In this document: one piece after another, positions 7,760 through 24,623 of the stretch
Layout of the letters: every line of letters begins with the position of its first letter
How positions within the stretch are numbered: the first letter of the stretch is position 1
Source of the DNA: an uncultured Myxococcales bacterium
GTDB taxonomy: Bacteria; Myxococcota_A; UBA9042; DTJE01
Assembly: GCA_903847405.1 (NCBI GenBank)
Contig: CAINDP010000204.1
Span: 1-32,697, forward strand
Direction of reading: 5' to 3'
DNA length: 32,697 nt
The notes under the pieces: model-generated
Seen by the model: the letters and a program-made list of their open reading frames with translations, nothing else
The model's database searches: none
Told to the model about the DNA's origin: nothing
Position numbers and translations under genes: made by a program

Positions 7760-7780
7760 CCGGCCATGGTCAGGCGGCGG

Positions 7781-7797
7781 CCCCGGAGGCTCCGGGG
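7781..7797 (+). other. Small GC hairpin in the glnA leader
   Basis: CCCCGGA and TCCGGGG form a 7-bp stem with a GGC loop inside the predicted untranslated leader of glnA. No U-tract follows, so it is not an obvious attenuator. I recognise no glutamine riboswitch consensus. It may be chance in GC-rich DNA. Confidence 0.3.
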
Positions 7798-7836
7798 GCA
7801 CCCCTTCGCCGGACAGCGCCCGCTGGAGGTTGCCCC

Positions 7837-9183
7837 ATGAAGACCGAGGCACTTCGCCCGTTGGACAAGGCCAAGATCCTGAAGCTGTGCAAGGATGAAG
7901 GGGTCCGTTTCCTGCGCCTGCAGTTCACGGACATCCTGGGCATCAACAAGAACGTCGAGGTCCCCGAGAGCCAGTTCGTCAAGGCGCTCGACGGCGAGAT
8001 CATGTTCGACGGTTCGTCGATCCAGGGCTTCGTCCGGATCGAGGAATCGGACATGGTCCTGAAGCCGGACCTGGAATCGTTCCGGATCTTCCCGTGGGCC
8101 GACGCCCGGGGCAAGGTCGCCCGCGTCATCTGCGACGTCGTCCAGCCGAACGGCACGCCCTTCCCGGGCTGCCCGCGGTCGGCCCTCAAGCGGGTCGTCG
8201 CCGAGGCGGCCAGGATGGGCTACACCCCGATGCTGGGCCCGGAAGCCGAATTCTTCCTGTTCCAGTTGAACCCCGACGGCACCCCCACGACGATCACCCA
8301 TGACCAGGGCGCGTACTTCGACCTGGCCCCGATCGACAAGGGCGAGGACTGCCGCCGCGAGATCGTGAACGCCCTGGAAAGCATGGGCTTCGAGATCGAG
8401 GCGGCGCACCACGAGGTCGCCCCCGGTCAGCACGAAATCGACTTCCGGTACGACGAGGCGGTCGCGACGGCCGACCAGTTGGTCACGTTCAAGTTCGTCG
8501 TGCGCAAGGTCGCCCTGGACTTCGGCCTGCACGCGACCTTCATGCCCAAGCCCATCGCGGGCATCAACGGCTCGGGCATGCACGTGCACCAGTCGCTGTA
8601 CACGGCCGGCAAGAACGTCTTCTACGACGCCAAGGCCAAGTGGCAGCTGTCGGCGACGGCGCTGAACTACATCGGCGGCGTCCTGGCCCACGCGAAGGGC
8701 ATCTGCGCCATCACCAACCCGACGGTGAACTCGTACAAGCGCCTGGTCCCGGGCTACGAGGCCCCCACGAACATCGTGTGGTCCGAGCGCAACCGCAGCC
8801 CCATGGCCCGCGTGCCCGACCGTCGCGGCAGCGGCACCCGCGTGGAAATCCGGACGCCCGACCCGTCCTGCAACCCCTACCTCGCCTTCGCGGTCATGAT
8901 CGCGGCCGGCCTGGATGGCATCAAGAACAAGACGTCCCCCGGGGAGCCGGTGAACAAGAACATCTTTGAAATGTCCCAGCGCGAAAAGCGGCGCCACAAG
9001 ATCGACGAACTGCCCGGCGACCTCAGCGAGGCCCTGAAGGAGCTGCGGAAGGACGAGGTCGTGAAGGCCGCCCTGGGCGAGCACCTGACCACCCAGTTCC
9101 TGGAGGCCAAGTCCGCCGAGTGGCACAACTACATCGGCGTGGTCCACCAGTGGGAACTGGACTCCTACCTCGCCCGGTTCTGA
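7837..9183 (+). CDS. glnA: Glutamine synthetase type I (class I-alpha)
   Basis: The enzyme makes glutamine from glutamate, ammonia and ATP in the cytoplasm as a dodecamer. The 448-residue product carries the GS N-terminal signature (MFDGSSIQGFVRIEESDM), the metal-binding EAEFF, the HHEVAPGQHEIDFRY segment, GSGMHVHQSL, the ATP-loop NPTVNSYKRLVPGYEAP and the RIPD-like MARVPDRRGSG with VEIRTPDPSCNPY. Its length and the C-terminal NKNIFEMSQ region, which lacks the adenylylation-site motif with Tyr before DLP, place it in class I-alpha. That class is controlled by feedback rather than by GlnE. Arg in GFVRIEESDM matches the feedback-related Arg62 of Bacillus GS. GGAGGT lies 6 nt before the ATG. A palindromic hairpin starts immediately after the stop. 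Confidence 0.96.
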   Translation: MKTEALRPLDKAKILKLCKDEGVRFLRLQFTDILGINKNVEVPESQFVKALDGEIMFDGSSIQGFVRIEESDMVLKPDLESFRIFPWADARGKVARVICDVVQPNGTPFPGCPRSALKRVVAEAARMGYTPMLGPEAEFFLFQLNPDGTPTTITHDQGAYFDLAPIDKGEDCRREIVNALESMGFEIEAAHHEVAPGQHEIDFRYDEAVATADQLVTFKFVVRKVALDFGLHATFMPKPIAGINGSGMHVHQSLYTAGKNVFYDAKAKWQLSATALNYIGGVLAHAKGICAITNPTVNSYKRLVPGYEAPTNIVWSERNRSPMARVPDRRGSGTRVEIRTPDPSCNPYLAFAVMIAAGLDGIKNKTSPGEPVNKNIFEMSQREKRRHKIDELPGDLSEALKELRKDEVVKAALGEHLTTQFLEAKSAEWHNYIGVVHQWELDSYLARF

Positions 9184-10162: not shown

Positions 10163-10405
10163 GTGGACCGCCAGAACGTCACGGTTTCCTTGCCCCGCGA
10201 AATCGTGCTGCGCGCACGGCACATCGCGGTCGAACGTGGCCTGTCCCTGTCACGCCTGCTGTCCGAGTCCATCGAGGGCATGGTTCGCGACGACGAGTCG
10301 CGCCAACGCGCCCTGCGACGAATCAGGCAGCGCCTGTCCCGCGGGTTCGACCTCGGGACGAAGGGTTCCGTCGGGGTGACCCGGGAGGCGCTCCATGAGC
10401 GTTGA
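10163..10405 (+). CDS. RHH-like antitoxin of a PIN-domain toxin-antitoxin pair
   Basis: The 80-residue basic protein starts with a short strand, NVTVSLPREIVLRAR, then a helix-turn-helix-like ERGLSLSRLLSESIEG, as in ribbon-helix-helix antitoxins. It ends in a toxin-wrapping tail (GFDLGTKGSVGVTREALHER). Tails of this shape with SRDELHDR-like endings recur in antitoxins paired with PIN toxins. GTG 10163 is selected because AAGGAG sits 5 nt upstream; there is no ATG. Its last 11 nt overlap the toxin gene. It should neutralise the toxin and autoregulate the operon through the repeats at 10126-10151 (inference). Confidence 0.78.
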   Translation: MDRQNVTVSLPREIVLRARHIAVERGLSLSRLLSESIEGMVRDDESRQRALRRIRQRLSRGFDLGTKGSVGVTREALHER

Positions 10406-10811
10406 GTTCGTGGACACGAATGTCCTGGTCTACGCCCACGACTCGGGCGCCGGCCCGAAGCGCAAGGCAGGACGCGACCTCCTGCTGCGCCTGATGGAGA
10501 CCGGCAGCGGCGCCATCAGCACGCAGGTGCTGTCCGAATTCCTGGTCACGGTCACCCGCAAGATCCCAAAACCTCTGACGACCCGCACCGCGATCGACAT
10601 CGTCGAGGACCTCGCCACGATGACCGTCGTGCAACCTGCGGTCGCCGACCTGGTGGCGGCAGCGACACTGGCGGAAGAGCACCACATCCACTTCTGGGAT
10701 GCCCTAATCATCCGCTCCGCGCAAGTCGCGGGCGCGAACACCCTCTGGTCCGAGGACCTGTCCGCCGGGCAGGACTTCGACGGGGTCGTCGTCCGGAATC
10801 CCTTCGCCTGA
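10395..10811 (+). CDS. PIN-domain ribonuclease toxin (VapC-like)
   Basis: The 138-residue protein has the PIN acidic tetrad: Asp7 in FVDTNVLVYA, Glu48 in LSEFL, Asp102 in FWDALI and Asp121 in SEDL. These residues coordinate Mg2+ for RNA cleavage in VapC-type toxins. The length is typical. The start lies inside the end of the antitoxin gene, so translation is coupled. No inactivating change is visible, so the toxin is probably functional. Confidence 0.88.
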   Translation: MSVEFVDTNVLVYAHDSGAGPKRKAGRDLLLRLMETGSGAISTQVLSEFLVTVTRKIPKPLTTRTAIDIVEDLATMTVVQPAVADLVAAATLAEEHHIHFWDALIIRSAQVAGANTLWSEDLSAGQDFDGVVVRNPFA

Positions 10812-10953: not shown

Positions 10954-10984
10954 CCCCCGCCGCTGACACGCGCTCAACCCCTCG

Positions 10985-10999
10985 TGGCACGCCTCTTGC
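10985..10999 (+). promoter_or_regulatory. Sigma-54 (-24/-12) promoter of the hydrogenase operon
   Basis: TGGCAC at 10985-10990, then 5 nt, then TTGC at 10996-10999. The invariant GG (10986-10987) and GC (10998-10999) are separated by exactly 10 nt, as required for RpoN holoenzyme. Transcription would start near 11011, giving a leader of about 70 nt before the ATG at 11080. An enhancer-binding regulator with GAFTGA is encoded at 6179-7594. Confidence 0.78.
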
Positions 11000-11079
11000 C
11001 AGTGCCGACGGTGCGCCCGAGGCGACTTCGGCCCCGGCGGCGGAAACGGATCCCGGTGAAGCGGAGGAGGCATTCGACG

Positions 11080-11619
11080 ATGGCGGACAACGCAGCAACG
11101 TGCACCTGCGAAGCGGTACCTGAAGAGGAACTGCTGGCGCGGCTGGAAGGGGTGATCGCGGAATACCGCGAGAAGCCCGGCGCCCTGATCCCGGTGCTCC
11201 AGATCGCCCAGGGGATCTTCGGGTATCTTCCCGAAGTCGCCCTGAAGCGCATCGCGGTCGGGCTGGACAAGCCCTACAGCGAAGTCGCGGGCGTGGTCAC
11301 CTTCTACTCGTTCTTCAGCACGGAGCCCCGTGGACGGCACCTCGTCCGCGTGTGCCTGGGCACCGCGTGCTACGTCCGCGGCGGCAAGCAGGTCCTGGAC
11401 GCCTTGAAGGCGAAACTGGGCTGCGACGTCGGGCAGACGACGGCCGATCGGAACTTCACGCTGGAAGTGGCCCGGTGCTTCGGCGCCTGCGGCCTGGCTC
11501 CGGCGCTGATGATCGACGACGACGTGCACCAGCGGGTCAAGCCTGCACGCCTGCAGGCGATCCTCGATCGCTACGCGGTCGAAAGTGGTGACGCTCAGCC
11601 CATTCCCGGAGGTGAGTGA
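11080..11619 (+). CDS. hydC: [FeFe]-hydrogenase NuoE-like [2Fe-2S] subunit
   Basis: The 179-residue thioredoxin-fold ferredoxin is homologous to complex I NuoE and to the small subunits (HydC/HndA) of NAD(P)-linked [FeFe]-hydrogenases. Cys92 and Cys97 (CLGTAC) with Cys133 and Cys137 (CFGAC) ligate the [2Fe-2S] cluster. The N-terminal helical region with GALIPVLQIAQGIFGYLP and the VAGVVTFYSFF motif are typical. It would relay electrons between the flavin subunit and the cluster chain. ATG 11080 has GGAGGAGG 9 nt upstream. It is the first gene after the -24/-12 promoter. The stop is 2 nt before the next ATG, and GGAGGTGA for the next gene lies in its last codons, so the two are translationally coupled. 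Confidence 0.92.
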   Translation: MADNAATCTCEAVPEEELLARLEGVIAEYREKPGALIPVLQIAQGIFGYLPEVALKRIAVGLDKPYSEVAGVVTFYSFFSTEPRGRHLVRVCLGTACYVRGGKQVLDALKAKLGCDVGQTTADRNFTLEVARCFGACGLAPALMIDDDVHQRVKPARLQAILDRYAVESGDAQPIPGGE

Positions 11620-11621
11620 CC

Positions 11622-14600
11622 ATGACGACCAGGAATCGCATCGAGTCCGTGACCGACCTCCAGGCCGTGCGTGAGCGCGCCATCAAGGCCGCCAACACCG
11701 CCGGCGCCAGCCCGGATCGCCGCCAGGTGCTGGTGTGTACCGGCGGCGGCTGCATCGCATCCGGCTCGCTGGACGTGGTGTCCGCCTTCCGTCGCACGCT
11801 GGCCGCCAAGGGCCTGGACGGCAGCGTCCAGTTGCTGGAAACCGGCTGCCTGGGTCCCTGCGCGCAGGGCCCGGTCGTGGTCGTGTACCCCGACGGTACC
11901 TTCTATCAGCAGGTCAAGGCCGCCGACGTGGACGAAATCGTCGACAGCCACCTGCTGCGCAACACCGTGGTCAGCCGCCTGGTGAACCGCCACAGCGGCA
12001 CCGGCGAACTGGTCCCGCTGATCAAGAACCTCGAGTTCTTCAAGAAGCAGGTCAAGATCGTCCTGCGGAACTGCGGCGTCGTCGATCCGCTGAAGATCGA
12101 GGACTACATCGCCCATGACGGCTACGCGGCGCTGGCCAAGGCGCTGACGCAGATGACGGCCGACGCCGTCGTCGACGAAATCAAGGCGTCCGGCCTGCGC
12201 GGCCGCGGCGGCGGCGGCTTCCCGACGGGCCTCAAGTGGTCCTTCGCCCGGAAGTCCCCGAACCCCGTGAAGTACGTGCTGTGCAACGCCGACGAAGGCG
12301 ACCCGGGCGCGTTCATGGATCGTTCGGTCCTGGAAGGCGACCCCCACAGCGTCATCGAAGCCATGGCGATCGCGGGCTACTGCATCGGGTCCACCCAGGG
12401 CTTCGTGTACGTCCGCGCCGAGTACCCCCTGGCCATCGAGCGCCTGGGCATCGCGATCCAGCAGGCTCGCGACGTCGGGCTGCTGGGCAAGAACATCCTG
12501 GGCACCGGCTTCGAGTTCGACCTGGAAATCCGGCGCGGTTCCGGCGCGTTCGTCTGCGGCGAGGAAACCGCCCTGATGACGTCCATCGAAGGCAACCGCG
12601 GCGAGCCCCGCCCCCGTCCGCCCTTCCCGGCGGTCAAGGGCCTGTGGGACAAGCCGTCGCTGCTGAACAACGTCGAAACCTACGCGAACATCGCGCCGAT
12701 CCTGCTGAAGGGCTCGGCGTGGTACGCGGCCTACGGCACCGCCAAGTCCAAGGGCACCAAGGTGTTCGCCCTGGCCGGCGCCGTGAAGAACACGGGCCTG
12801 GTCGAAATCCCGATCGGCATGCCCCTGGGCGAGCTGGTCTTCGAGGTCGGCGGCGGCATCCCCGGGAACAAGAAGTACAAGGCGGCCCAGATGGGCGGCC
12901 CGTCCGGCGGCTGCATCCCCACGGAACACCTGGGCGTGCCGGTCGACTACGAATCCCTGATCGAGCTGGGCGCCATCATCGGTTCGGGCGGCCTGATCGT
13001 CATGGACGACGACGCCTGCATGGTGGACGTCGCCCGCTTCTTCCTGGAGTTCTGCCAGGACGAGTCCTGCGGCAAGTGCGCCCCGTGCCGCATCGGCACC
13101 AAGCGCATGCTGGAAATCCTGGAGCGCATCTGCGACGGCCACGGCGTCGAAGGCGACGTCGAGCGCCTGATCGAGCTGGGCAACACCATCAAGGACACGG
13201 CGCTTTGCGGCCTGGGCCAGACGGCCCCGAACCCGGTCCTGTCCACGATCCGCTACTTCCGGAACGAGTACGACGCCCACATCCGGGAAAAGAAGTGCCC
13301 GGCCGGCGCCTGCACCGCGCTGGTCCGCGCCCCGTGCCAGAACGCCTGCCCCGCGGGCGTGGACGTCCCCGGCTTCGTGTCGCTGGTCGGCGAGGGTCGC
13401 TACTCGGACGCCATGAAGTGGCACCGGGACCGCAACCCGCTGGCGTCGATCTGCGCCCGCGTCTGCTTCCACCCGTGCGAATCCAAGTGCCGCCGCGTCA
13501 CGCTGGACACCCCGGTGGCCATCCGCGGCATCAAGCGCTTCATGGTGGACCAGCCGGTCGATCTGGAACTGCCCGAGATGCGCCCGGTGGCCGCCAACGC
13601 CAACCGCAAGGTCGCCATCATCGGCGGCGGGCCCGCGGGCCTGTCGGCCGCGTACTTCCTGGCGCGCCTGGGCTACACCCCGACGGTCTTCGAGGCCGAA
13701 AGCAAGGCCGGCGGCATGCTGGTCCAGACCATCCCGGCGTACCGCCTGCCCCGCGAGCGCCTGGAAGCCGAAATCAAGCTGATCGAGTCCATGGGCGTCA
13801 CGATCCTGACGGACAAGCGCCTGGGTCGCGACTTCACCCTGAACGGTCTGCGCGGCGAAGGCTACCAGGCCGTGTTCCTGGGCATCGGCGCCATGAAGGG
13901 CAGCACCCTGGGCCTGCCGAATGAAACGGCGGACGGCGTGGCCGAGGCCCTTTCCTTCCTGAAGGCCGCGAACATGGGCACCGGCGTCACCGTGGGTCGT
14001 CGCGTCGCCGTCATCGGCGGCGGCAACGCGGCCATCGACGCGGCCCGCACCGCCAAGCGCCTGGGCGCCGAGGACGTCACGATCGTCTACCGCCGCCGCC
14101 GCAACGAGATGCCGGCGTGGGAAGTGGAAATCGACGAGGCCCTGACCGAAGGCGTGATCCTGGAAACCCTGGTGGCCCCCGTCGAAGTGGTCGTGGAAAA
14201 CGGCCGCGTGGTCGGCCTGGCCTGCCAGCGCATGGAACTGGGTTCCTACGACAAGTCCGGCCGCCGGCGTCCCGTCCCGATCAAGGGCGCCCTGTTCACG
14301 ATTCCCGTCGATCAGATCGTCGCCGCCGTCGGCCAGTCGGTCGAGTCGGCCGGCCTGTTCGGGGACGTGCCGGTCACGCTGAACCGTGACGGCACCGTGA
14401 AGGCGGATCCGCAGACCGGCCGCACGTCGGTCGAGTGGCTGTTCGCGGGTGGCGACGCCACCGTCGGGCCGTCCTCGGTCGTCGAGGCCATCGCCGCCGG
14501 CGAAAGGGCCGCGGTGGGCATCGATGCCGCCTTGACCGGCGCGAATCACGCCTTCTGGCGCGAGGAGCGGACGGTGGACACGGCCTTCGATCCCGACGCC

Positions 14601-14753
14601 GAGCCGATCTACCTGCAGCGGGCCCACGAGTGCCTGCGGCCGGTGGCCGAGCGCACGGGTTCCTTCGCCGAGGTCGAGTTGACCTGGAGCGAGACCGTGG
14701 CCCGGGGCGAAGCGCGGCGCTGCCTGCGCTGCGACTACCGGGAGTCCTGCTAA
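11622..14753 (+). CDS. hydB: Hydrogenase NuoF-like flavin subunit fused to a GltD/NfnB-type NADPH oxidoreductase
   Basis: This is a 1043-residue fusion. Residues 36-110 form a thioredoxin-like [2Fe-2S] domain (Cys39, 44, 76, 80). Residues 135-545 are the NuoF core, with GRGGGGFPTG at 195-204 for FMN and NADH, CNADEGDPGAF at 221-231, and the 4Fe-4S ligands Cys483, 486, 489 and 529. HydB normally ends in a two-cluster ferredoxin. Here CPAGAC (559-564) leads instead into a Fer4_20 domain (Cys572, 576, 611, 615, 619, 623). A complete two-dinucleotide flavoprotein follows, with FAD GGGPAG at 668-673, NADPH GGGNAAID at 799-806 and the basic VYRRRRNEMPAW typical of NADPH-binding GltD/NfnB. A terminal CLRC motif ends it. 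A second flavin and a second pyridine-nucleotide site are therefore predicted, suggesting NAD(H), NADP(H), ferredoxin and H2 are linked. ATG 11622 fits the SD better than GTG 11616. Confidence 0.9.
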   Translation: MTTRNRIESVTDLQAVRERAIKAANTAGASPDRRQVLVCTGGGCIASGSLDVVSAFRRTLAAKGLDGSVQLLETGCLGPCAQGPVVVVYPDGTFYQQVKAADVDEIVDSHLLRNTVVSRLVNRHSGTGELVPLIKNLEFFKKQVKIVLRNCGVVDPLKIEDYIAHDGYAALAKALTQMTADAVVDEIKASGLRGRGGGGFPTGLKWSFARKSPNPVKYVLCNADEGDPGAFMDRSVLEGDPHSVIEAMAIAGYCIGSTQGFVYVRAEYPLAIERLGIAIQQARDVGLLGKNILGTGFEFDLEIRRGSGAFVCGEETALMTSIEGNRGEPRPRPPFPAVKGLWDKPSLLNNVETYANIAPILLKGSAWYAAYGTAKSKGTKVFALAGAVKNTGLVEIPIGMPLGELVFEVGGGIPGNKKYKAAQMGGPSGGCIPTEHLGVPVDYESLIELGAIIGSGGLIVMDDDACMVDVARFFLEFCQDESCGKCAPCRIGTKRMLEILERICDGHGVEGDVERLIELGNTIKDTALCGLGQTAPNPVLSTIRYFRNEYDAHIREKKCPAGACTALVRAPCQNACPAGVDVPGFVSLVGEGRYSDAMKWHRDRNPLASICARVCFHPCESKCRRVTLDTPVAIRGIKRFMVDQPVDLELPEMRPVAANANRKVAIIGGGPAGLSAAYFLARLGYTPTVFEAESKAGGMLVQTIPAYRLPRERLEAEIKLIESMGVTILTDKRLGRDFTLNGLRGEGYQAVFLGIGAMKGSTLGLPNETADGVAEALSFLKAANMGTGVTVGRRVAVIGGGNAAIDAARTAKRLGAEDVTIVYRRRRNEMPAWEVEIDEALTEGVILETLVAPVEVVVENGRVVGLACQRMELGSYDKSGRRRPVPIKGALFTIPVDQIVAAVGQSVESAGLFGDVPVTLNRDGTVKADPQTGRTSVEWLFAGGDATVGPSSVVEAIAAGERAAVGIDAALTGANHAFWREERTVDTAFDPDAEPIYLQRAHECLRPVAERTGSFAEVELTWSETVARGEARRCLRCDYRESC

Positions 14754-14783
14754 CCAGGGCGATTGCGCGAGGAGGAACGACCC

Positions 14784-16583
14784 ATGGTGAACCTGACGAT
14801 CAACGGCTTCCCGGTCCAGGCGGCAGACGGTTCGACCGTGCTGACCGCGGCGCGTGATGCCGGCATCAACATCCCGACCCTGTGCTACCTGGAAGACGTG
14901 CAGGCCATCGGCGCCTGCCGCCTCTGCATGGTGGAAATCGAGGGTGCCCGCACCCTGATCCCGGCCTGCGTCGCACCGGCGACCGAGGGCATGAAGGTCA
15001 AGACGAACAGCCAGCGTGTCCGTGACGCCCGTCGCACGGTCATGGAACTGCTGATGTCCGACCACGCCGGCGACTGCAAGACCTGCGACCGCAACGACGA
15101 TTGCGAGTTCCAGGCCCTGGCCCGCGACCTGGGCATCCGCCAGATCTCGTGGCCGGGCGACGTCAACCCGTCGCACATCGACACCTCCACGTCGGCCCTG
15201 GTGCGCGACACCGGCAAGTGCGTGCTGTGCCGCCGCTGCGTCACGGTCTGCAACACGACCCAGGCCGTGGGCGCCCTGTTCCCGCAGGCCCGCGGCTTCA
15301 AGACCGTCGTCGGTCCGGCGTTCGGCCGGGACCTCGACACCGTCACCTGCGTGCAGTGCGGCCAGTGCTCGGCCGTCTGCCCCGTGGGCGCCATCAGCGA
15401 GCGCGACGACACCGACAAGGTGTGGGCCGCCCTGGAGAACCCTGCCAAGTACGTCGTCGTGCAGACGGCGCCGGCCATCCGCGCCGCCCTGGGCGAGGAG
15501 TTCGGCTACGAGCCCGGCACGCTGGTCACCGGCAAGATGACGGCGGCCCTGCGGCGCCTGGGCATCAACGCCGTGTTCGACACGAACTTCACGGCCGACC
15601 TCACCATCCTCGAGGAAGGCACGGAACTGCTGATGCGCCTGAAGGCCGCGCTGGTCCCGTCGGAAGGCGGCCACGCGGAAGGCCACCACGCCCACGGCCC
15701 CCTGCCGCTGGCGACGTCCTGCTGCCCGGCGTGGATCAAGAACTGCGAGCACTTCCACCCGGACTTCCTGCCGAACCTGTCCACCTGCAAGTCCCCCCAG
15801 CAGATGTTCGGCGCGGCGGCCAAGACGTACTACTCGCGCACGATCGCCAAGCACCCGTCGGACATCTTCGTCGTGTCGATCATGCCCTGCACGGCCAAGA
15901 AGTTCGAAGCCGAGCGGCCCGAGATGGAGGCCTCCTGGCAGCGCGACGTGGACGTGGTCCTGACCACCCGCGAATTGGCCCGCATGATCAAGGAAGCCGG
16001 CATCGACTTCCGGAACCTGCCCGACGAAGCGATGGACGCGCCGATGGGCCTGGGCACCGGCGCGGCGGACATCTTCGCCAACACCGGCGGCGTCATGGAA
16101 GCCGCCCTGCGCACCGCCTGGGAAATCGTGACGGGCCACCAGTTGCCGTTCGACGGCCTGCGCGTCACCCCGATCGAAGGCATGGAAGGCGTCAAGGAAG
16201 CCGCCGTGACCTTCACCGGTTGCACCCCCGACTGGTCCTTCCTGGAAGGCGTCACCGCGAAGGTCGCGGTCGCCCACGGGCTGGCCAACGCGAACAAGGT
16301 CGTGGACAGCATCCGCAAGGGCGAAGCGTCCTACCACTTCATCGAGTTCATGTCCTGCCCCGGCGGCTGCATCGGCGGCGGCGGCCAGCCCCGTCTGACC
16401 ACCGACGCCGTCCGCAAGGCGCGTACCGACGCCATCCGGCGCGAGGACCAGGGAAAGGGTCTTCGCAAGTCCCATGAAAACCCGCAGGTGCGGGCGGTCT
16501 ACGAGGCGTTCTTCAAGACGCCGAACTCGGACCTTTCGCACCGCTTCCTCCACACCCACTACTTCGGGCGAGACAGGGTGTGA
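14784..16583 (+). CDS. hydA: [FeFe]-hydrogenase catalytic subunit (M3 type)
   Basis: This 599-residue enzyme reversibly reduces protons to H2. N-terminal clusters: [2Fe-2S] at Cys34, 45, 48 and 62; a His-ligated 4Fe-4S at His94, Cys98, 101 and 107; and two 4Fe-4S at Cys146/149/152/156 and 189/192/195/199. The H-cluster motifs are intact: L1 TSCCPAW with proton-relay Cys313 and ligand Cys314, L2 MPCTAKKFE with Cys369 and Lys372, and L3 CPGGCIGGGGQP with Cys525 and Cys529. It is therefore predicted to be catalytically competent. A His-rich insertion (about 295-305) just before L1 is unusual. AGGAGG lies 8 nt before the ATG. With the two upstream subunits it forms a trimeric HydABC-like complex. 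Maturases HydEFG are needed but not in this window. Confidence 0.96.
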   Translation: MVNLTINGFPVQAADGSTVLTAARDAGINIPTLCYLEDVQAIGACRLCMVEIEGARTLIPACVAPATEGMKVKTNSQRVRDARRTVMELLMSDHAGDCKTCDRNDDCEFQALARDLGIRQISWPGDVNPSHIDTSTSALVRDTGKCVLCRRCVTVCNTTQAVGALFPQARGFKTVVGPAFGRDLDTVTCVQCGQCSAVCPVGAISERDDTDKVWAALENPAKYVVVQTAPAIRAALGEEFGYEPGTLVTGKMTAALRRLGINAVFDTNFTADLTILEEGTELLMRLKAALVPSEGGHAEGHHAHGPLPLATSCCPAWIKNCEHFHPDFLPNLSTCKSPQQMFGAAAKTYYSRTIAKHPSDIFVVSIMPCTAKKFEAERPEMEASWQRDVDVVLTTRELARMIKEAGIDFRNLPDEAMDAPMGLGTGAADIFANTGGVMEAALRTAWEIVTGHQLPFDGLRVTPIEGMEGVKEAAVTFTGCTPDWSFLEGVTAKVAVAHGLANANKVVDSIRKGEASYHFIEFMSCPGGCIGGGGQPRLTTDAVRKARTDAIRREDQGKGLRKSHENPQVRAVYEAFFKTPNSDLSHRFLHTHYFGRDRV

Positions 16584-16593
16584 CGCGGGCGTA

Positions 16594-16646
16594 CCCGGCG
16601 TCCAGCGACGGTACCTCCTCGCTGGGCGCCGGGCACCACTAGTTTT
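16594..16646 (+). terminator. Terminator-like hairpin after hydA
   Basis: 16594-16608 and 16619-16633 form a 15-bp GC-rich stem (one G-T pair) with a 10-nt loop, 11 nt after the hydA stop. A short T-run lies only at 16643-16646, nine nt beyond the stem, so termination may be partial. A -10-like TATGCT follows at 16650-16655 and may serve the sensor gene, but no -35 is visible. Confidence 0.6.
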
Positions 16647-16688
16647 GGGTATGCTAGCCTGCGTGCTGGGGCGAAGCAGGAGATCCCG

Positions 16689-18731
16689 ATGGCCGTCCTG
16701 TGGACGATTCCCGAACGGTGCCGACGCTGCTACACCTGCGTCCGGGACTGTCCTGCCAAGGCCATCCAGGTCGTTTCCGGCCAGGCGCGGGTCGTGCCCG
16801 AGCGCTGCATCGCCTGCGGGAACTGCGTGAAGGTGTGCGCCCAGGGCGCCAAGCGCGTCCGGGACGACATCGACGAAGTCCGTGACATGCTGGCCGGCGA
16901 CAAGCCGGTGTTCGCCTGCATCGCCCCGTCCTATCCCGCAGCCTTCGACACCGTGGAACCCGGGCGCGTCATCCAGGCGATCCGCGCCCTGGGATTCGCC
17001 GAGGTCTGGGAAGTGGCCTTCGGGGCCGAACTGGTGGCCCCGGCGTACCTGCGCCTGTTCAACGAGGCCCGCCGGACCGGGAAGCCCGTGATCGCCACGC
17101 CCTGCCCTGCCGTCGTGACCTACATCGAAAAGTACCTGCCCGAACTGCACGACTACCTGGCGCCGATCGTGTCGCCCAAGGTGGCCGTGGCGCGCGCCAT
17201 CCGGCAGAAGCACAACGGCAACGTCCGCGTGGTGTTCATGGGCCCCTGCGTGGCGAAGAAGCACCACCTGCACACCGAATCGAACAGCGCCCTGGACGCC
17301 GTCCTGACGTTCGACGAACTGCACCGGATGTTCGTTGCCGCGGGCGTGGACCCGGCCGAGCAGCCCGTCAGCAGCTTCGACGGCCCCCGGGCCCACATCG
17401 GGCGGACCTTCCCCATCAGCGGCGGGCTGCTGAAGACCGCCGGCATGGGCGCCGACCTGCTGGACGGGGAAATCGTCGGCACCGAAGGCAAGAACCGCGT
17501 GCTGGCCACCCTGAAGGATCTGGCCGGCGGGCGCAGCCACGCGCTGTTCTACGACCTGCTGTTCTGCGAAGGGTGCATCGACGGCCCGATGATGCTGAAC
17601 GACCTCAGCGTGCTGGCCCGCAAGGAACTGCTGGTCACGCACATCAACGACCGTGCGCGCTTCGTGTCGCACCGCGAACTGGCCGAGTCCCTGGCCGAGT
17701 ACGAGGGCCTGGACCTGTCGCGGAAGTTCGAGCGCGAGAACCTCAGCCTGCCCCAGCCTGCCGAGGAGGACATCCTCAAGACGCTGGAGCGGATGCGCAA
17801 GGCGCTGCCGAACGACCAGTTGAACTGCGGCGCCTGCGGCTACCCGACCTGCCGGGAAAAGGCGATCGCGGTGTGCCAGGGCCTGGCCGAGCCCGCCATG
17901 TGCCTGCCCTTCCTGGTGGACGAACTGGAGCAGGTCGTCACCGACCTGCGGCAGTCCCACGAGGACCTGGCGACCACCCAGAAGCAGTTGCTGCGCAGCG
18001 AGCGGCTGGCGTCCATGGGCCAGTTGTCGGCGGGCATCGCCCACGAACTGAACAACCCGCTGGGCACGATCCTCCTGTACAGCCACATGCTGATGCGCGA
18101 AGTCCGGGACGATCGCGGCAAGGAAGACCTGCAGTTGATCGTCAGCGAGGCCACGCGCTGCAAGGACATCGTGCGCGGCCTGCTGGACTTCGCCCGGAAG
18201 TCCCGCGTGTCCAAGGCGCCGGCCGACATGAAGGAGGTGATCGACGAGATCGCCTCCATCGCGAAGGCCCGTGCCGACGAGATGCGCGTCGTGGTCACCA
18301 CCGCGGTGGCCGAAAACCTGCCCGTGCTGATGATCGACCGGGTCCAGTTGCGGCAGGCCCTGGTGAACGTGGCGATGAACGCCGTGGACAGCATGCCCGG
18401 CGGCGGCAGTCTGCACCTGGCCGCGCGGCTGTCCGATTCGGGCGACGACGTCCGGATCGAAATCACCGATACCGGGTGCGGGATCCCGACCGAAAACCTC
18501 AGCCGCCTGTTCACGCCGTTCTTCACGACCAAGGCCATGGGCAAGGGCACCGGCCTGGGCCTGGCGATCACCTACGGCGTGATCAAGATGCATTCCGGCG
18601 ACATCACCGTCGACAGCGAAGTCGGCAAGGGAACGACGTTCACCATCCGCCTTCCGGTGCGGACGGCGGATGCGATCGGGGACGATGGAAGCGCGCGTGA
18701 ATACCGCGTCGAGGAACAGTATTTCAGGTAA
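16689..18731 (+). CDS. Hydrogenase-like sensor fused to a histidine kinase
   Basis: The 680-residue cytoplasmic protein has two 4Fe-4S clusters (Cys11/14/17/21 and 40/43/46/50), then a [FeFe]-hydrogenase large-subunit-like domain (about 72-340). The L1 motif reads TPCPAV: ligand Cys139 is kept but the catalytic proton-relay Cys is Pro138. L2 is MGPCVAKK with Cys187. L3 is shortened to CEGC (Cys293, Cys296) followed by IDGP. Four cluster ligands therefore remain but turnover is unlikely, as in the sensory (HydS-like) groups. A FeS motif NCGACGYPTC with further Cys (380-405) and a coiled linker lead to HisKA, His452 in GIAHELNNPLG, and an HATPase (N-box Asn564, DTGCGIP 594-600, GTGLGLA 620-626). 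No PAS domain was seen. AGGAG lies 6 nt before the ATG. It probably signals H2 or redox state to the receivers that follow. Confidence 0.9.
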   Translation: MAVLWTIPERCRRCYTCVRDCPAKAIQVVSGQARVVPERCIACGNCVKVCAQGAKRVRDDIDEVRDMLAGDKPVFACIAPSYPAAFDTVEPGRVIQAIRALGFAEVWEVAFGAELVAPAYLRLFNEARRTGKPVIATPCPAVVTYIEKYLPELHDYLAPIVSPKVAVARAIRQKHNGNVRVVFMGPCVAKKHHLHTESNSALDAVLTFDELHRMFVAAGVDPAEQPVSSFDGPRAHIGRTFPISGGLLKTAGMGADLLDGEIVGTEGKNRVLATLKDLAGGRSHALFYDLLFCEGCIDGPMMLNDLSVLARKELLVTHINDRARFVSHRELAESLAEYEGLDLSRKFERENLSLPQPAEEDILKTLERMRKALPNDQLNCGACGYPTCREKAIAVCQGLAEPAMCLPFLVDELEQVVTDLRQSHEDLATTQKQLLRSERLASMGQLSAGIAHELNNPLGTILLYSHMLMREVRDDRGKEDLQLIVSEATRCKDIVRGLLDFARKSRVSKAPADMKEVIDEIASIAKARADEMRVVVTTAVAENLPVLMIDRVQLRQALVNVAMNAVDSMPGGGSLHLAARLSDSGDDVRIEITDTGCGIPTENLSRLFTPFFTTKAMGKGTGLGLAITYGVIKMHSGDITVDSEVGKGTTFTIRLPVRTADAIGDDGSAREYRVEEQYFR

Positions 18732-18774
18732 CCTGTGCGGCGGTTCGACCCGCCACGCTGCCATGGAGGATGCG

Positions 18775-19158
18775 ATGAGCGACGTGAAGAAAGTGCTGCT
18801 GGTGGACGACGATGCGAACCTGGTGGCGGTCAATCGCGCGGTGCTGGAAAGCCGCGGGTACACGGTCACGGCGGCCCACTCGGGCCCCGCGGGCCTGGTG
18901 AAGGCCAAGGCCGACGCGCCGGACCTGATCGTGCTGGACGTGATGATGGGGACCAACAGCGAAGGCTTCGACCTGGCGCGCGCCCTGCGGAAGGACGACG
19001 CCACGAAGGCCATCCCGCTGATCATGGTCACGTCGGTCAACACGACGGTGCCGTTCAAGTTCGAGCCGGACGCGACGTACCTGCCGGTGGACCGCTTCCT
19101 GGAGAAGCCGGTCGCCCCCGAAGCCCTGCTGGCGGAAATCCAGGGCATCCTGTCCTGA
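18775..19158 (+). CDS. Stand-alone response-regulator receiver (CheY-like)
   Basis: The 127-residue protein is a receiver domain only. The acidic pocket is at Asp11-13 in VDDDAN, the phosphoacceptor is Asp55 in VLDVMMG, the switch residue is in MVTSVN, and the conserved lysine is Lys111 in FLEKPV. An extended loop, TTVPFKFEPDATYLPVD, precedes the lysine. There is no output domain, so it must act by protein contact or as a phosphorelay intermediate. ATG 18775 has GGAGG 5 nt upstream; the open frame extends upstream into the kinase gene but without an SD. It lies 43 nt after the hydrogenase-like kinase and 65 nt before the receiver-kinase, so all three are probably one operon. Confidence 0.9.
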   Translation: MSDVKKVLLVDDDANLVAVNRAVLESRGYTVTAAHSGPAGLVKAKADAPDLIVLDVMMGTNSEGFDLARALRKDDATKAIPLIMVTSVNTTVPFKFEPDATYLPVDRFLEKPVAPEALLAEIQGILS

Positions 19159-19223
19159 TCCCCGCCGACCCGGGCGGTGCCGCTGTCGCCTCGGGGCCAA
19201 TCCCGTGCCCCCCGGAGGTCCTC

Positions 19224-20717
19224 ATGGCCGATCGACCCAGCCGAATCCTGGTCGTGGACGACGAGGTCGGAATGCGCGAGGGGTGCCGTCGCATCCTCGC
19301 GGCCGAGGGCTACGAGGTCGAAACGGCCGAGGACGGGCTGGCGGCGCTGGAAAAGTTCAAGACCGCCGGCGGGTTCGACGTCGTCATCTCCGACCTGAAG
19401 ATGCCCCGCATGGGCGGCATGGACCTCATCGAGGCCCTCCACGTCATCGACGAGGACGCCCTGCTGCTGGTCATCACGGCCTACGCGACGATCGACACCG
19501 CCGTGGACGCCACCAAGCGCGGCGCCTACGGCTACATCCCCAAGCCGTTCACGCCCGACGAACTGCTGCTGCACGTCCGCAACGGCCTGGAAAAGCGCGC
19601 CCTGCGGATCGAGGCCAAGGCCCTGCGCGAGGAGCGCGAGCGCCGCCTGCTGGAAGTGGCGTTCGAGCGGTCGAAGTCCACCACGATCCTGCACTGCATG
19701 ACCGACGGCGTGCTGGTGGTGAACCGCGAGGGCCGCATCGTCCTGCGCAACGCGGCGCTGTCCCGCATCCTGCCCAGTTGCGCGGAGGATCCCCTGTCCG
19801 CGCCCGAGGTCGAGGCCCTGGAACTGCCCGAACTGGTGACGCTGGTCATGGAAGTGGTGCAGGCCGACGCGCCCATCATCGCCTCCAAGGAGATTTCCAT
19901 CGGGTCCTGCACCTACATGGTCAACGCGGCGCCGGTGCTGGAGCCGTCGGGCGAAACCCTGGGTGCGGTCGCGGTGCTGCGCGACATCACGGCGCTGAAG
20001 AAGCTGGAAATCGCCAAGTCGATGTTCGTGTCCATGGTGGCCCACGAACTGAAAAGCCCCCTGGCGACGATCGAGTCCTCGCTGAACATCGTGCTGACGG
20101 GCATCGCGGGCGACGATCCGGAACGCGATCGCCAGATGATGCAGCGCGCCCTGCTGCGGGCCACCACCCTGCGGACGCTGGTGTCGGACCTGCTGAACCT
20201 GACGGCGATCGAAACCGGCAACTTCAGCCTGAAGCGCCAGCACGCCGACCTGTGCATCATCGTCCGCGAAACCGTGGACGCCTACGCGGACAAGGCGGCC
20301 GAAAAGAACGTGACCCTGCACCTGGAGTGCACGGGCCCGGCCCCCATCGACCCGATCCTCGCCGACCCGAACGCGGTGCGCAGCATCGTCACCAACCTGG
20401 TGGACAACGCCGTCAAGTACACCCCCAACGGGGGCCACGTGAACGTCCGCGTGGACGGCAACGGCCTGTACACGCGGGTCGTGGTGAAGGACTCGGGCAT
20501 CGGCATGACGCCCGCGGAACGCGACCGGGTCTTCGACGAGTTCTATCGCGTCAAGAACGACTACACGGCCCACGTCCCGGGCACGGGCCTGGGCCTGGCC
20601 CTGGTGCGCCGCCTGGTGGACATGCACCAGGGCCGCATCGACGTGGACTCGACCCCCGGCAAGGGCAGCGCCTTCGCCGTCAGCCTCCCGACCGTCGCCT
20701 ACGCCACCGGGATGTAG
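19224..20717 (+). CDS. Receiver-PAS-histidine kinase (hybrid with N-terminal receiver)
   Basis: The 497-residue soluble protein starts with a receiver (about 7-122; Asp57 in ISDLKMPRMGG, Lys107 in YIPKPF). A coiled linker and a PAS domain (about 150-255, ending AVLRDITALKK) follow. The HisKA phosphoacceptor is His274 in SMVAHELKSPLATIE. The HATPase has Asn395 in NLVDNAVKYT, DSGIGM (423-428) and GTGLGLAL (453-460). No transmembrane segments are present. The receiver-first order suggests that it is controlled by phosphotransfer from another kinase, most simply the hydrogenase-like kinase upstream. The target of its own phosphate is not evident. GGAGG lies 6 nt upstream of the ATG at 19224. Confidence 0.9.
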   Translation: MADRPSRILVVDDEVGMREGCRRILAAEGYEVETAEDGLAALEKFKTAGGFDVVISDLKMPRMGGMDLIEALHVIDEDALLLVITAYATIDTAVDATKRGAYGYIPKPFTPDELLLHVRNGLEKRALRIEAKALREERERRLLEVAFERSKSTTILHCMTDGVLVVNREGRIVLRNAALSRILPSCAEDPLSAPEVEALELPELVTLVMEVVQADAPIIASKEISIGSCTYMVNAAPVLEPSGETLGAVAVLRDITALKKLEIAKSMFVSMVAHELKSPLATIESSLNIVLTGIAGDDPERDRQMMQRALLRATTLRTLVSDLLNLTAIETGNFSLKRQHADLCIIVRETVDAYADKAAEKNVTLHLECTGPAPIDPILADPNAVRSIVTNLVDNAVKYTPNGGHVNVRVDGNGLYTRVVVKDSGIGMTPAERDRVFDEFYRVKNDYTAHVPGTGLGLALVRRLVDMHQGRIDVDSTPGKGSAFAVSLPTVAYATGM

Positions 20718-20823
20718 GCCCCCCCCCAACCCGTTTCCCGCGAGTTTGAACGACCGGCTCGGCCGCGCTGGCAGCGGTCCTGCGGGCCCGGCCGGCGACA
20801 GCGACGCGACTTCCGTGCGACAG

Positions 20824-20829
20824 TAGAAT
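20824..20829 (+). promoter_or_regulatory. Weak -10-like element upstream of sixA
   Basis: TAGAAT lies 24 nt before the ATG at 20854, without a recognisable -35 at the right distance. The 136-nt gap 20718-20853 also holds a run of nine C residues (20719-20727) and a low-quality -24/-12-like sequence at 20769-20784. I saw nothing else there. Confidence 0.25.
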
Positions 20830-20853
20830 CCTCGATCGCTGGGGAACCCGTTC

Positions 20854-21363
20854 ATGAAGAGCCTCATCCTGTTCCGGCACGGGCCCGCGGGCCATTCCGA
20901 CGAAACGATGCCCGAGGACGATGCGCAGCGGCCGCTGACTCCGAAGGGGCAGAAGGTCAGCAAGAACGCGGCGAAAATGATGCGCCTGATGGGCGCGCGC
21001 CCGACGGCCGTCGTGACCAGCCCGCTGGATCGCGCCGCGCAGACCGCCGCGATCGCCGCCAAGGTGATGGGCCTGGAGGACGGCGTCACGATCTGCGACG
21101 CGCTGCGGCCCGGGACGCCGATCCGGGACATGATCGAAGCCCTGGCGCCGCTGTTCGCCACCACGGACACGCTGCTGGTCGTGGGCCACGAGCCCGACCT
21201 GTCCCACCTCGCCGCCACCCTGGTGTCGGGCCAGCCCCACGCGGCCCTGGAACTGCGCAAGGCCGGTTTCTGCCTGCTGATGGCAGACGAACTGCGTGCC
21301 GGCAAGTGCGCGGTCCTGCGGGCGCTGCTGAATCCCCGGGGCATGGAAGGCGACGCCGACTGA
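20854..21363 (+). CDS. sixA: SixA-type phosphohistidine phosphatase (histidine phosphatase superfamily)
   Basis: The 169-residue protein has the branch-1 catalytic motif LFRHGPAG with His9 and the second catalytic His112 in VVGHEPDLS. The segment TSPLDRAAQTA supplies the conserved Arg. Compact size without insertions is typical of SixA, which removes phosphate from histidine in HPt domains. It lies just downstream of a three-gene phosphorelay and heads the polyphosphate genes (33 nt before ppk). SixA relatives next to ppk and CHAD genes are a recurrent arrangement, so its substrate could relate to either. It starts at ATG 20854; only a weak purine-rich site (TGGGGAAC) lies upstream. Confidence 0.88.
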   Translation: MKSLILFRHGPAGHSDETMPEDDAQRPLTPKGQKVSKNAAKMMRLMGARPTAVVTSPLDRAAQTAAIAAKVMGLEDGVTICDALRPGTPIRDMIEALAPLFATTDTLLVVGHEPDLSHLAATLVSGQPHAALELRKAGFCLLMADELRAGKCAVLRALLNPRGMEGDAD

Positions 21364-21396
21364 CGTGCGGACCACGACACCTCGCAGGAGACCCCG

Positions 21397-23655
21397 GTGA
21401 CGGCCAGCAAGCACAAGACTGCGAAGCGGGGGGGAGTGAAGCCGGAGGAACCGATCCCGGTCGAAGCCGCGAAGCCGCCCCGGAAGGCCGCACGACGGTC
21501 GGGCAAGGCCGCCGGCACGTCCGCCCCGATCGACCCGGCGCCGATCGGCCTGCCCCTGGTGAACCGCGAGGCCAGCCACCTGGAGTTCCAGCGGCGCGTG
21601 CTGGAGGAGGCCCGGGATCCGGCGAACCCGATCGTCGAGCGGGCCATGTTCCTGTCCATCTTCTTTTCGAACCTGGACGAGTTCTTCATGGTGCGCGTGG
21701 CGGGCCTGATTTCGCAGGTCCAGTCCCGCATCACGGAGCGCTCGGCCGACGGCCTGACGCCCGCCGAGGCCCTGGCCGCCGTGCGCCATCACGCCCGGGA
21801 ACTGATGAGCGAGGGCCAGGCCTACTACCGCGACACCCTGCTGCCCGCCCTGGAGGAGAAGGGCGTCAGCATCCAGGCCTACGCCGACCTGAACGACGCC
21901 CAGAAGCAGCGCCTGGGCGAGTGGTTCCGGGAGGTCGTGTACCCGGTCCTGACGCCGCTGGCCTTCGACCCGGGCCATCCGTTCCCGCACATCTCGAACC
22001 TCAGCATCAACCTGGCCGTGTCGATCCGGGACGGCCGGCACGTCCGGTTCGCCCGCATCAAGGTCCCCGAAAGCCTGCCCCGCCTGGTGCCCCTGAAACG
22101 CAGTTCGGGAGGGACCCGGAAGGACGGCACGTCGCCCCGGATCCACGCCTTCGTGTGGATCGAGGAGGTGATCGCCGCGAACCTGGACCTGCTGTTCCCG
22201 GGGCTGGCGGTCATCGAGGCGCACCCCTTCCACGTCACCCGCGACGGCGAAACGGAAATCCAGGAACTGGAGGCCGGCGACCTGCTGGAGTCCGTCGAGG
22301 AAAGCATCCGGCGCCGGCGGTTCGGGTCCGTGGTGCGCCTGGCGATCCCGCCGACGATGCCCGCCCCGATGCTGGAACTGCTGGTCGAAAACCTGGAAAT
22401 GGATCGGCGCGACCTGTACACGGTGGACGGTCCCCTGGCGCTGTCGGACCTGAAGGCCCTGGGCGCGATCGTGGGTCCGCACCTGCACTTCCCGCCCCAC
22501 GTGCCGCTGGTGCCCCCGATCTTCCGCGTCGCCGGCGAGGGACGGATCTTCGAGGCCATCCGGGACGAGGACCGACTGCTGCACCATCCCTACGACTCGT
22601 TCCTGCCCGTCGTGGACTTCCTGCAGCAGGCCGCCCGGGACCCGCACGTCCTGGCCATCAAGCAGACGCTGTACCGCGTGGGGCGCAACTCGCCCGTGGT
22701 CGAGGCGCTGCTGGAGGCCGTCGAGGAAGGCAAGCAGGTGTCGGTGCTGGTGGAACTGAAGGCCCGCTTCGACGAGGAGTCGAACATCGAGTGGGCGCGG
22801 AAGCTGGAAGACGCCGGCGTCCACGTCATCTACGGGCTGCTGGGGCTGAAGACGCATTCGAAGATCGCGCTGGTGGTCCGCCGGGAGGGCGAGCGCATCC
22901 GCCGCTACGTGCACCTGGCGACCGGCAACTACAACCCGGCCACGGCCCAGGCCTACGAGGACGTGGGCATCTTCACCTGTGACGAGGCGATCGGCGCCGA
23001 CGCGACGGACCTGTTCAACTACCTCACCGGGTACTCGCGCAAGGTGGACTACCGCAAATTGATGGTCGCGCCGGTGAACCTCCGGGAGCGCCTGGAGGGC
23101 CTGATCCGCCGGGAGATCGCCCACGCCGAGGCGGGCCGGAAGGCGCACATGATCCTGAAGTCGAACTCGCTGGTGGACCCGGGGATCATCGACCTGGTGG
23201 TCCAGGCGGTCCGGGCCGGCGTGGACGTGGACCTGCTGATCCGCGGCATCTGCTGCATGCGCCCGGACGTTCCCGGCGCCAAGGGACGCCTGCGCATCCT
23301 CAGCGTGCTGGGGCGCTTCCTGGAGCACAGCCGCATCTACTGGTTCCGCAACCACGGCGACGAGGACGTGTGGCTGGGCAGCGCGGACCTGATGCCGCGC
23401 AACCTGGACCACCGCGTCGAGGTGCTGTTCCCGGTGGAGTCGCCGCGCTGGATCCGGTACCTGCGGGACAACGTGCTGGAAACGTACCTGCACGACAACC
23501 GGCGGGTCCGGGAACTGATGCCCGACGGGACCTACGTGCGCCTGAAGCCGACCCCCGGCGCCCCCGACGTGGACGTGCATGCCACGCTGATGGCACGGCG
23601 GACGGCGGCGGGACGCCCGGCGCCGGAACCGCAATCCCGTTCGGCGAAGGACTGA
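21397..23655 (+). CDS. ppk1: Polyphosphate kinase 1
   Basis: PPK1 polymerises the gamma-phosphate of ATP into polyphosphate. The 752-residue protein has a Lys/Ala/Pro-rich extension of about 48 residues, then the N-terminal domain (ASHLEFQRRVLEEA, FFSNLDEFFMVRVAG), head and two C-terminal phospholipase-D-like domains. The phosphohistidine is His487 in THSKIALVVR. The second His506 in YVHLATGNYN is 19 residues later, the same spacing as His435/His454 of E. coli Ppk. GSADLMPRNLDHRVE is the C-terminal conserved site. The start is GTG 21397, with AGGAG 6-7 nt upstream. It sits between sixA and a CHAD gene. Confidence 0.95.
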   Translation: MTASKHKTAKRGGVKPEEPIPVEAAKPPRKAARRSGKAAGTSAPIDPAPIGLPLVNREASHLEFQRRVLEEARDPANPIVERAMFLSIFFSNLDEFFMVRVAGLISQVQSRITERSADGLTPAEALAAVRHHARELMSEGQAYYRDTLLPALEEKGVSIQAYADLNDAQKQRLGEWFREVVYPVLTPLAFDPGHPFPHISNLSINLAVSIRDGRHVRFARIKVPESLPRLVPLKRSSGGTRKDGTSPRIHAFVWIEEVIAANLDLLFPGLAVIEAHPFHVTRDGETEIQELEAGDLLESVEESIRRRRFGSVVRLAIPPTMPAPMLELLVENLEMDRRDLYTVDGPLALSDLKALGAIVGPHLHFPPHVPLVPPIFRVAGEGRIFEAIRDEDRLLHHPYDSFLPVVDFLQQAARDPHVLAIKQTLYRVGRNSPVVEALLEAVEEGKQVSVLVELKARFDEESNIEWARKLEDAGVHVIYGLLGLKTHSKIALVVRREGERIRRYVHLATGNYNPATAQAYEDVGIFTCDEAIGADATDLFNYLTGYSRKVDYRKLMVAPVNLRERLEGLIRREIAHAEAGRKAHMILKSNSLVDPGIIDLVVQAVRAGVDVDLLIRGICCMRPDVPGAKGRLRILSVLGRFLEHSRIYWFRNHGDEDVWLGSADLMPRNLDHRVEVLFPVESPRWIRYLRDNVLETYLHDNRRVRELMPDGTYVRLKPTPGAPDVDVHATLMARRTAAGRPAPEPQSRSAKD

Positions 23656-23741
23656 AGGTTCCGGACCCCGGGGGGACGAACACGAAACGCGCGGCCGAAA
23701 CCACCACGACATCGCCTGCGCCGCGAATCCCCGGACCCGGC

Positions 23742-24623
23742 GTGACGCGGGACGACTCGCCTCTTCAGGCCGCGTGCCGGATCGCGCACCTTCAGTGCGA
23801 CCGCCTGGCGTGTCATGCCGACGCGCTGCGGGGGGGCTCGTTGGATGTCGAGGACGTGCACGACATGCGGGTGGCGACGCGACGGGTGCGCGCGGTCCTG
23901 TCGGTGTTCCATGGGGTTCTTCCTGCGAAACCCGCCCGGGCACTGGACCGGCGGTTGCGGGCGGCGACCCGGCGCCTGGGGCGCGTGCGGGACCTGGACG
24001 TGCTGATCGCGGGGCTGGCCGGCGGCGAGGGTGGAACCCCCGTGGACGCCGCGACCGTGCAGCACTTCACCCGCATGCAGGAACGCGCCCGGCGGCGGCT
24101 GGATCGCTATCTGGACGGACCGAAGTACGCGGACCTTGACGATCACGCCCGGCGCCTGTGCGTCGCCGCGCAGGCAGGGCTGAAGGACGCCGCGGGAATC
24201 GTCGCGCTGCAGGCGCCGGTGCTGCTGTTCGTGGCGCTGGCCGAGGCCCGCTCCCGGCCGCCCGGCCCCCGCCCCACCCTGGACGACCTGCACGGGCTGC
24301 GCATCCGGATGAAGCGCCTGCGGTACACGATCGAGTGCTTCCAGGAAATCCTGGGCGAACCCGGCGCGGCGTTCCTGGCCGCCGTGAAGGACCTGCAGGA
24401 CGTCCTGGGCGCGATCCAGGATGCCCGCGTGGCGGCGGACCGCGTGGAGGAGTACCTTCGAAGGCACGGGCCCGAGGGAGCGGCCGGCAAGGCGCTGGCG
24501 GCGTATGTCCGGCAGCAGCGGCGCCAGGCGGCGGACGGGGCACGGGGATTCCCGGCCCGGTGGCGGGCGTTCGAGGAATCGGGCCTGCGGGAACGGCTGG
24601 CCGCCGCCGCGGCGGGACTGTGA
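23742..24623 (+). CDS. CHAD-domain protein (polyphosphate-associated)
   Basis: The 293-residue, mostly alpha-helical protein has the CHAD signature: VHDMRVATRRVRAVL near 42-56, RLGRVRDLDVL and the second-half LRIRMKRLRYTIECF, with many surface Arg/His. CHAD domains are known to bind polyphosphate and accompany ppk genes, which fits this position. The start is uncertain. There is no ATG; GTG 23742 is the first standard start after the ppk stop but has a poor SD. A CTG overlapping the ppk stop (23652) would add about 30 residues rich in Thr/Pro. No CYTH domain is fused. The stop forms TGATG with a tiny ORF that bridges to the ROK gene. Confidence 0.82.
   Translation: MTRDDSPLQAACRIAHLQCDRLACHADALRGGSLDVEDVHDMRVATRRVRAVLSVFHGVLPAKPARALDRRLRAATRRLGRVRDLDVLIAGLAGGEGGTPVDAATVQHFTRMQERARRRLDRYLDGPKYADLDDHARRLCVAAQAGLKDAAGIVALQAPVLLFVALAEARSRPPGPRPTLDDLHGLRIRMKRLRYTIECFQEILGEPGAAFLAAVKDLQDVLGAIQDARVAADRVEEYLRRHGPEGAAGKALAAYVRQQRRQAADGARGFPARWRAFEESGLRERLAAAAAGL

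Follow-up and report, generated by a model that had tools for sequence, protein, structure and literature searches.

What does a protein sense if it is built like an [FeFe]-hydrogenase, is fused to a histidine kinase and is encoded beside a hydrogen-metabolising enzyme? Such an arrangement probably reports hydrogen or redox state. It is found in an uncultured Myxococcales bacterium (assembly GCA_903847405.1, contig CAINDP010000204.1), for which the window analysed comprises 32,697 nucleotides.

Organisation of the sensor kinase and its operon

The gene concerned (16689..18731, +) encodes a hydrogenase-like sensor histidine kinase of 680 aa, as assigned with Pfam. Its ATG start is preceded by AGCAGGAGATCCCG, with an SD-like AGCAGGAGA upstream, and the protein aligns start to start with relatives at 93%, 83% and 76% identity. 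An initial annotation, made from the sequence without database searches, described a single polypeptide with two ferredoxin clusters, a hydrogenase domain, an additional FeS motif and a complete kinase lacking PAS, and this layout is borne out by Pfam and by motif inspection. Two ferredoxin-type [4Fe-4S] motifs (16719..16838, +; Cys 11/14/17/21 and 40/43/46/50), for which Pfam reports Fer4_10 at residues 7-50, are followed by the H-domain (16902..17588, +), where the profile search returned Fe_hyd_lg_C (PF02906) at residues 72-300 with an E-value of 1.4e-41. The C-terminal FeS domain (PF04060; 17817..17909, +; residues 377-407) carries the motif Cx2Cx4Cx16C (Cys 380/383/388/405) and precedes HisKA (18015..18200, +; residues 443-504, E 6.9e-15), with the phospho-acceptor His452 in IAHELNNPL, and HATPase_c (18336..18662, +; residues 550-658, E 4.9e-28), with DTGCG, FTPF and GKGTGL boxes. 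Every one of these Pfam matches exceeds its cut-off. The H, G1, F and G2 boxes are all present, as is a REC partner. Pfam finds no PAS domain in the protein at E<1, and a hidden one is excluded by this result together with the 47-residue linker between Cys405 and His452, which leaves no space for it.

Immediately upstream lie HydC, a NuoE-like [2Fe-2S] thioredoxin subunit (11080..11619, +; PF01257, E 1.6e-49, scored on the longer ORF 10984-11616), HydB (11616..14753, +), which combines 2Fe-2S, NuoF-like FMN, NADH_4Fe-4S and GltD-like FAD/NAD domains, and HydA (14763..16583, +). HydA is a catalytic [FeFe]-hydrogenase that scores 840 bits against the group A6 model NF040763 of NCBIfam (cut-off 765) and has intact catalytic motifs (TSCCP/MPCTAKK/CPGGC). 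The layout of HydB suggests an NAD(P)-linked and possibly bifurcating enzyme. The hydrogenase that the initial annotation placed next door is indeed there as a probably bifurcating HydABC. Downstream, a single-domain response regulator (REC; 18763..19158, +; Pfam Response_reg, E 5.1e-18) is a conserved neighbour and likely the first phosphate acceptor. A REC-HisKA-HATPase protein (19224..20717, +), identified by domain content and conserved in its position, is likely a second signalling partner. The conserved gene order is HydC-HydB-HydA-sensor-REC-REC/HK. The reverse strand is fully open here, with a 3379-aa ORF (11595-21734, -) that we reject as an artefact of high GC content, the sense operon facing it being well supported.

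The H-domain retains cluster ligands and has lost the proton relay

Motif alignment confirms the four ligand cysteines named initially, with Cys139, Cys187, Cys293 and Cys296 filling ligand positions C300, C355, C499 and C503, and likewise the Pro in place of the catalytic Cys and the shortened L3 motif. L1 reads T-P138-C139-P (17097..17108, +), with Pro at the C299 proton-relay position; L2 reads G185-P-C187-V-A-K190-K (17241..17261, +), with Gly at M353 and Lys at K358; L3 reads C293-E-G-C296-I-D-G-P (17565..17588, +) and is contracted to CxxC. The L3 sequence CEGC is one residue shorter than the catalytic CPGGC and departs from CxxxC spacing, and a gap inside the motif also appears in HMMER's alignment of the sensor with the Desulfovibrio enzyme. 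The proton relay described as disabled has been lost more widely than was claimed, since the group A relay C299/E279/E282/S319/R286, together with M353 and M497, is replaced or absent throughout. Assignment to group D was rejected on residues 353 and 252, the sensor having Gly185 at M353 and Leu247 at the Glu252-type relay position.

These losses bear on whether the protein might be an enzyme that turns over H2 slowly, with catalysis as its main role and the kinase as a by-product. TmHydS and TamHydS do turn over measurably without the usual relay (PMC10055695, PMC8163306), but here the relay of group A is missing, as is its group D substitute (E252), and an intact HydA adjoins; we regard such a role as highly improbable.

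The initial annotation took the whole motif pattern as that expected for a sensor. This holds for the H-domain, which is of sensor type, but calls for caution over the CxxC loop. Ruminococcus albus HydS, a proposed H2 sensor that, unlike the sensor kinase, adjoins a SpoIIE phosphatase, keeps CxxxC (CNGSC). As CxxxC is thus retained where PAS-type sensors were checked, the CxxC loop is an additional departure, one that may count either in favour of a normal H-cluster or against it.

A model of the 412-residue input module (pLDDT 74, pTM 0.77) has [FeFe]-hydrogenases as its best PDB matches (Foldseek E 9.5e-19, TMq 0.70), and the unrelated fold that the initial annotation had allowed for was not found. 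Because group A sequences were present in its alignment, the model confirms rather than discovers the fold, and with residues 297-306 just past L3 below pLDDT 50 it is silent on cluster geometry. A full-length model from five sequences (pLDDT 50) was unusable, which leaves the input module as the usable part.

The CxxC loop marks a multi-phylum lineage

Sensor residues 1-415, used as the query, matched 25 of 379 Myxococcota genomes and 231 of the 398 genomes taken from the phylum to which an Oscillospiraceae MAG belongs (E<=1e-30 in both cases), as well as 32 of 251 in the phylum of an Armatimonadetes-titled MAG (E<=1e-25); these counts pool all output types. The loci analysed were the best matches plus 20 lower ones, so that the sample leans to query-like sequences. 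An alignment of 135 domains contained 80 with CxxC, 32 of sensor type with CxxxC and 23 catalytic ones. The recurrence of the sensor's H-domain features in 80 sequences from three phyla indicates that they are not due to chance, and likewise leads us to reject a sequencing or assembly error as the source of CxxC. Viral and plasmid collections yielded only distant PAS-type or catalytic relatives. CxxC, with its one-residue deletion in L3, marks a large multi-phylum lineage for which we found no earlier description of either lineage or loop, in literature searches that missed older key papers.

All 16 cluster cysteines (eight ferredoxin, four H-domain and four C-terminal) are invariant in the CxxC sequences wherever the stretch is present. 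Lys is kept at K358 in 79/80, A230 and P231 in 78/78, S232 in 74/78 and P324 in 79/80. In CpI, the positions K358, A230-P231, S232 and P324 touch or hold the diiron subsite. M353 is replaced by Gly in 80/80 and M497 by Leu in 77/80; C299 is Pro, Ala, Thr or Ser in nearly all members and Cys in one; S319 is mostly Ala, and E279, E282 and R286 are missing. The deletion by which the class was defined removes G501 in 80/80. A few members have an extra Cys just ahead of the motif (CCxGC), which could restore the spacing.

Can an H-cluster exist with CxxC, or are many “sensory hydrogenases” not H2 sensors at all? An H-domain recognised by both profile and fold, invariant ligand cysteines and the retained diiron-contact positions argue for an H-cluster, and so, by analogy, does TmHydS, which binds one despite the same alterations at C299, M353 and M497 (PMC10055695). 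C299 is lost in most group C sensors, as it is here, being Ala in TmHydS, and for about 10% of the known sensory proteins Pro is reported at this position (PMC10055695). Judged from sequence, the lineage-wide short L3 may on the other hand stop the bridging Cys from reaching the diiron subsite. The protein might then be a redox sensor that keeps the [4Fe-4S] cubane, bound by the CxxC loop in ferredoxin-like fashion, and has no diiron subsite. Such a sensor would respond to the redox state of ferredoxin/NADH, or to damage by oxygen or NO, and not to H2. The clade-wide loss of one L3 residue and the loss of the proton relay would fit this reading, in which the other three FeS clusters would suffice as redox input, and for the related C1 group the presence of H-clusters was doubted in the work on Hydrogenedentota (PMC11406978). 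The near-invariance of K358, P231, S232 and P324 and the clustering of the sensor gene with maturase genes are harder to reconcile with it; we consider it the main alternative, albeit a less likely one.

Output domains and a putative signalling helix

Output types were assigned by sequence pattern, with Pfam applied to ten examples as well. On a quick tree built without the motif columns, the kinase fusions that lack PAS fall into a single supported group (36 rows, SH-aLRT 100). Next to it lie 28 fusions to sigma54 activators and 12 to PAS-kinases; PAS-only sensors, mostly CxxxC, fall outside these groups. One type of CxxC module is joined to kinases, PAS-kinases and sigma54 activators, and the direct kinase fusion forms a branch conserved both among Myxococcota and in the sample taken from the phylum of the Armatimonadetes-titled MAG. 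The rarity of direct fusion implied by the initial annotation cannot be upheld in view of this branch and of the group C3 sensors with kinase domains published from Hydrogenedentota and Calditrichota (PMC11406978). One kinase fusion (L031, 1450-3480) has CDGGC, that is CxxxC, and is nested among CxxC relatives, from which it follows that the spacing can change.

In Bacillota, the CxxC module is joined directly to a sigma54 activator (AAA+, HTH_8) at 28 loci (L086, L100, L116 and 25 others). It is possible that this fusion is a one-component H2- or redox-responsive transcription factor.

A helical linker (17904..18014, +) leads from the FeS domain to HisKA, the last FeS Cys lying 47 residues from the phospho-acceptor His. 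This spacing is 47 in 27 of the sequences with an acceptor His and 40 in two, which sit on separate branches of the tree. The difference is exactly one heptad, which fits a continuous coiled-coil signal helix and, given the relatedness of the sequences, is suggestive of one that is heptad-phased. In a sub-branch of the Armatimonadota sample, the phospho-acceptor His is lost (E/Q/S/A) in six of eight relatives and the spacing of 47 is kept. The loci lacking the His are L056, L057, L059, L062, L063 and L065, the first of which also carries a C-terminal REC domain.

This sub-branch, with its linker length unchanged, would accord with an H2 or redox sensor whose output is allosteric or by protein-protein contact, the kinase serving mainly as a scaffold or as a phosphatase on the neighbouring REC proteins. 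The sensor described here nevertheless retains His452 and the HATPase boxes, with a REC partner conserved alongside, and this kind of output appears improbable for it. As to the lineage as a whole, we tentatively suggest that the CxxC module may be a distinct multi-phylum receptor for H2 (or redox state) that has a re-shaped H-cluster loop and binds H2 without turning it over. Its outputs would be interchangeable and often PAS-less, with histidine kinases attached by way of a heptad-phased helix and sigma54 activators joined directly.

Maturases and genomic context

The source genome (5.65 Mb, 97% complete) contains HydE, HydF and HydG, and two further HydA genes, one of them near HydF, AspA, HydG and HydE; it also encodes another kinase fusion, at 46% identity, which likewise follows a HydA of its own. 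HydA is directly upstream of 17 of the 19 CxxC kinase fusions in Myxococcota. One genome has the order HydC-HydB-HydA-sensor-REC-REC/HK-HydE-HydF-HydG. Another has the sensor gene placed after HydG-HydE, and the 12 kb examined there contain no HydA. Both HydF and HydG were found in each of the 32 kinase-fusion genomes tested, as against HydF in two of the 12 genomes that gave no sensor match. This co-occurrence and the occasional location of the sensor gene in a maturase operon count in favour of an H-cluster, although catalytic HydA in the same genomes confounds the co-occurrence and accounts for part of it. At three loci (L161 4091, L162 3200 and L163 3506) a HydG-like gene, 33-38% to the HydG of the source genome, lies between HydA and the sensor kinase; it may be a second radical SAM protein.

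At the thresholds used, HydE, HydF and HydG were not found in six genomes of Bacillota whose CxxC sensors have outputs other than the direct kinase (G723, G750, G674, G715, G886 and G977, with loci L118, L083, L087, L094, L096 and L109), all of which also hold a catalytic-type HydA; the main contig of G723 spans 3.26 Mb of a 3.3 Mb genome. These genomes speak against an H-cluster and for the [4Fe-4S]-only sensor considered above.

A proposed function and its relation to known systems

On balance we think it fairly probable that the protein is an H-cluster-based H2 or redox sensor kinase that controls its own hydrogenase. It would be a soluble histidine kinase whose input is an [FeFe]-hydrogenase module with no catalysis or only very slow turnover, and we infer that an H-cluster is inserted and that H2 is the signal. 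H2, or a redox state set by it, would act at the metal cluster of the H-domain, and the change could travel via the adjoining FeS domain and the rigid heptad-phased helix to HisKA. Phosphorylation of His452 would be altered, the direction of this response being presumed in the same way as its target genes. Phosphate would pass from His452 to the neighbouring REC protein and the REC-HK, and the REC proteins would adjust the expression or activity of the HydCBA hydrogenase of the same operon. This reading is favoured by the upstream HydA and the spacing of 47 or 40, and by the deletion of hfsB, a PAS-type relative, which raised both the expression of adhE and the yield of ethanol, as would fit a regulator (PMC5707799). 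Weighing against the proposal, the C-terminal cluster of TamHydS is not reduced by H2 (PMC13104023), so that signal flow through this cluster need not be redox.

The architecture itself is already on record in HydDB groups C1 and C3, in BfuT of Hydrogenedentota and Calditrichota and in Fe_hyd_lg_C sigma54 activators. In HydDB, C1 is linked to histidine kinases and C3 to phosphatases (PMC5037454). According to PMC11406978, H-cluster motifs are hardly found in Hydrogenedentota C1 proteins with HATPase, and C3 BfuT carries PAS or histidine kinase domains and adjoins bifurcating hydrogenases. In the sub-type V clusters of that account (His_kinase_dom; Hydrogenedentota and Calditrichota) a kinase fusion lies beside bfuA of a group A3 hydrogenase. 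Our sensor resembles BfuT, compared here by description rather than sequence, in being encoded directly downstream of bfuA/hydA; a CxxC loop is not discussed in the passages of that account consulted here.

With TmHydS and group C (M2f) the sensor shares two N-terminal clusters, the H-domain, the C-terminal Cx2Cx4Cx16C motif and Gly at M353 (PMC10055695), the C-terminal motif being common to groups C and D (PMC8163306); its kinase output differs from the PAS output of TmHydS and others. Like TamHydS of group D (M2e), it has no PAS, a C-terminal cluster, Leu at M497 and a location near HydABC, whereas TamHydS has Ser at M353 (Ser/Thr in group D), the Glu252 substitute relay and no kinase (PMC8163306, PMC10407848). 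Clostridiales sigma54 activators have the same kind of input module, Fer4/Fe_hyd_lg_C/FeS (PMC6615313), and those found here are also CxxC, but their output is transcription activation through AAA+ and HTH_8 rather than phosphorylation.

The sensor thus belongs to a known kind, of which the L3 contraction with a preserved pocket and the interchangeable direct outputs represent a variant worth testing. Characterised sensory [FeFe]-hydrogenases end in PAS or have no obvious output, so that measurements have been confined to the hydrogenase half. The present protein combines its input and an assayable autophosphorylation output in a single soluble chain whose linker is fixed, which makes H2-dependent signalling directly testable. 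In the regulatory hydrogenase HoxBC with its kinase HoxJ, a hydrogenase-derived H2 receptor drives a histidine kinase. That system works like the proposed sensor, but it is an unrelated [NiFe] protein with the kinase, which has PAS, on a separate polypeptide.

Elsewhere in the window, genes for a histidine kinase, an NtrC-like regulator and glutamine synthetase (4686-9183) lie upstream of the hydrogenase operon, as does one for a protein that resembles a PIN-domain (VapC-type) toxin (10395-10811). Genes for a SixA-like histidine phosphatase, polyphosphate kinase and a CHAD-domain protein follow one another at 20854-24623 and make up a polyphosphate cluster.
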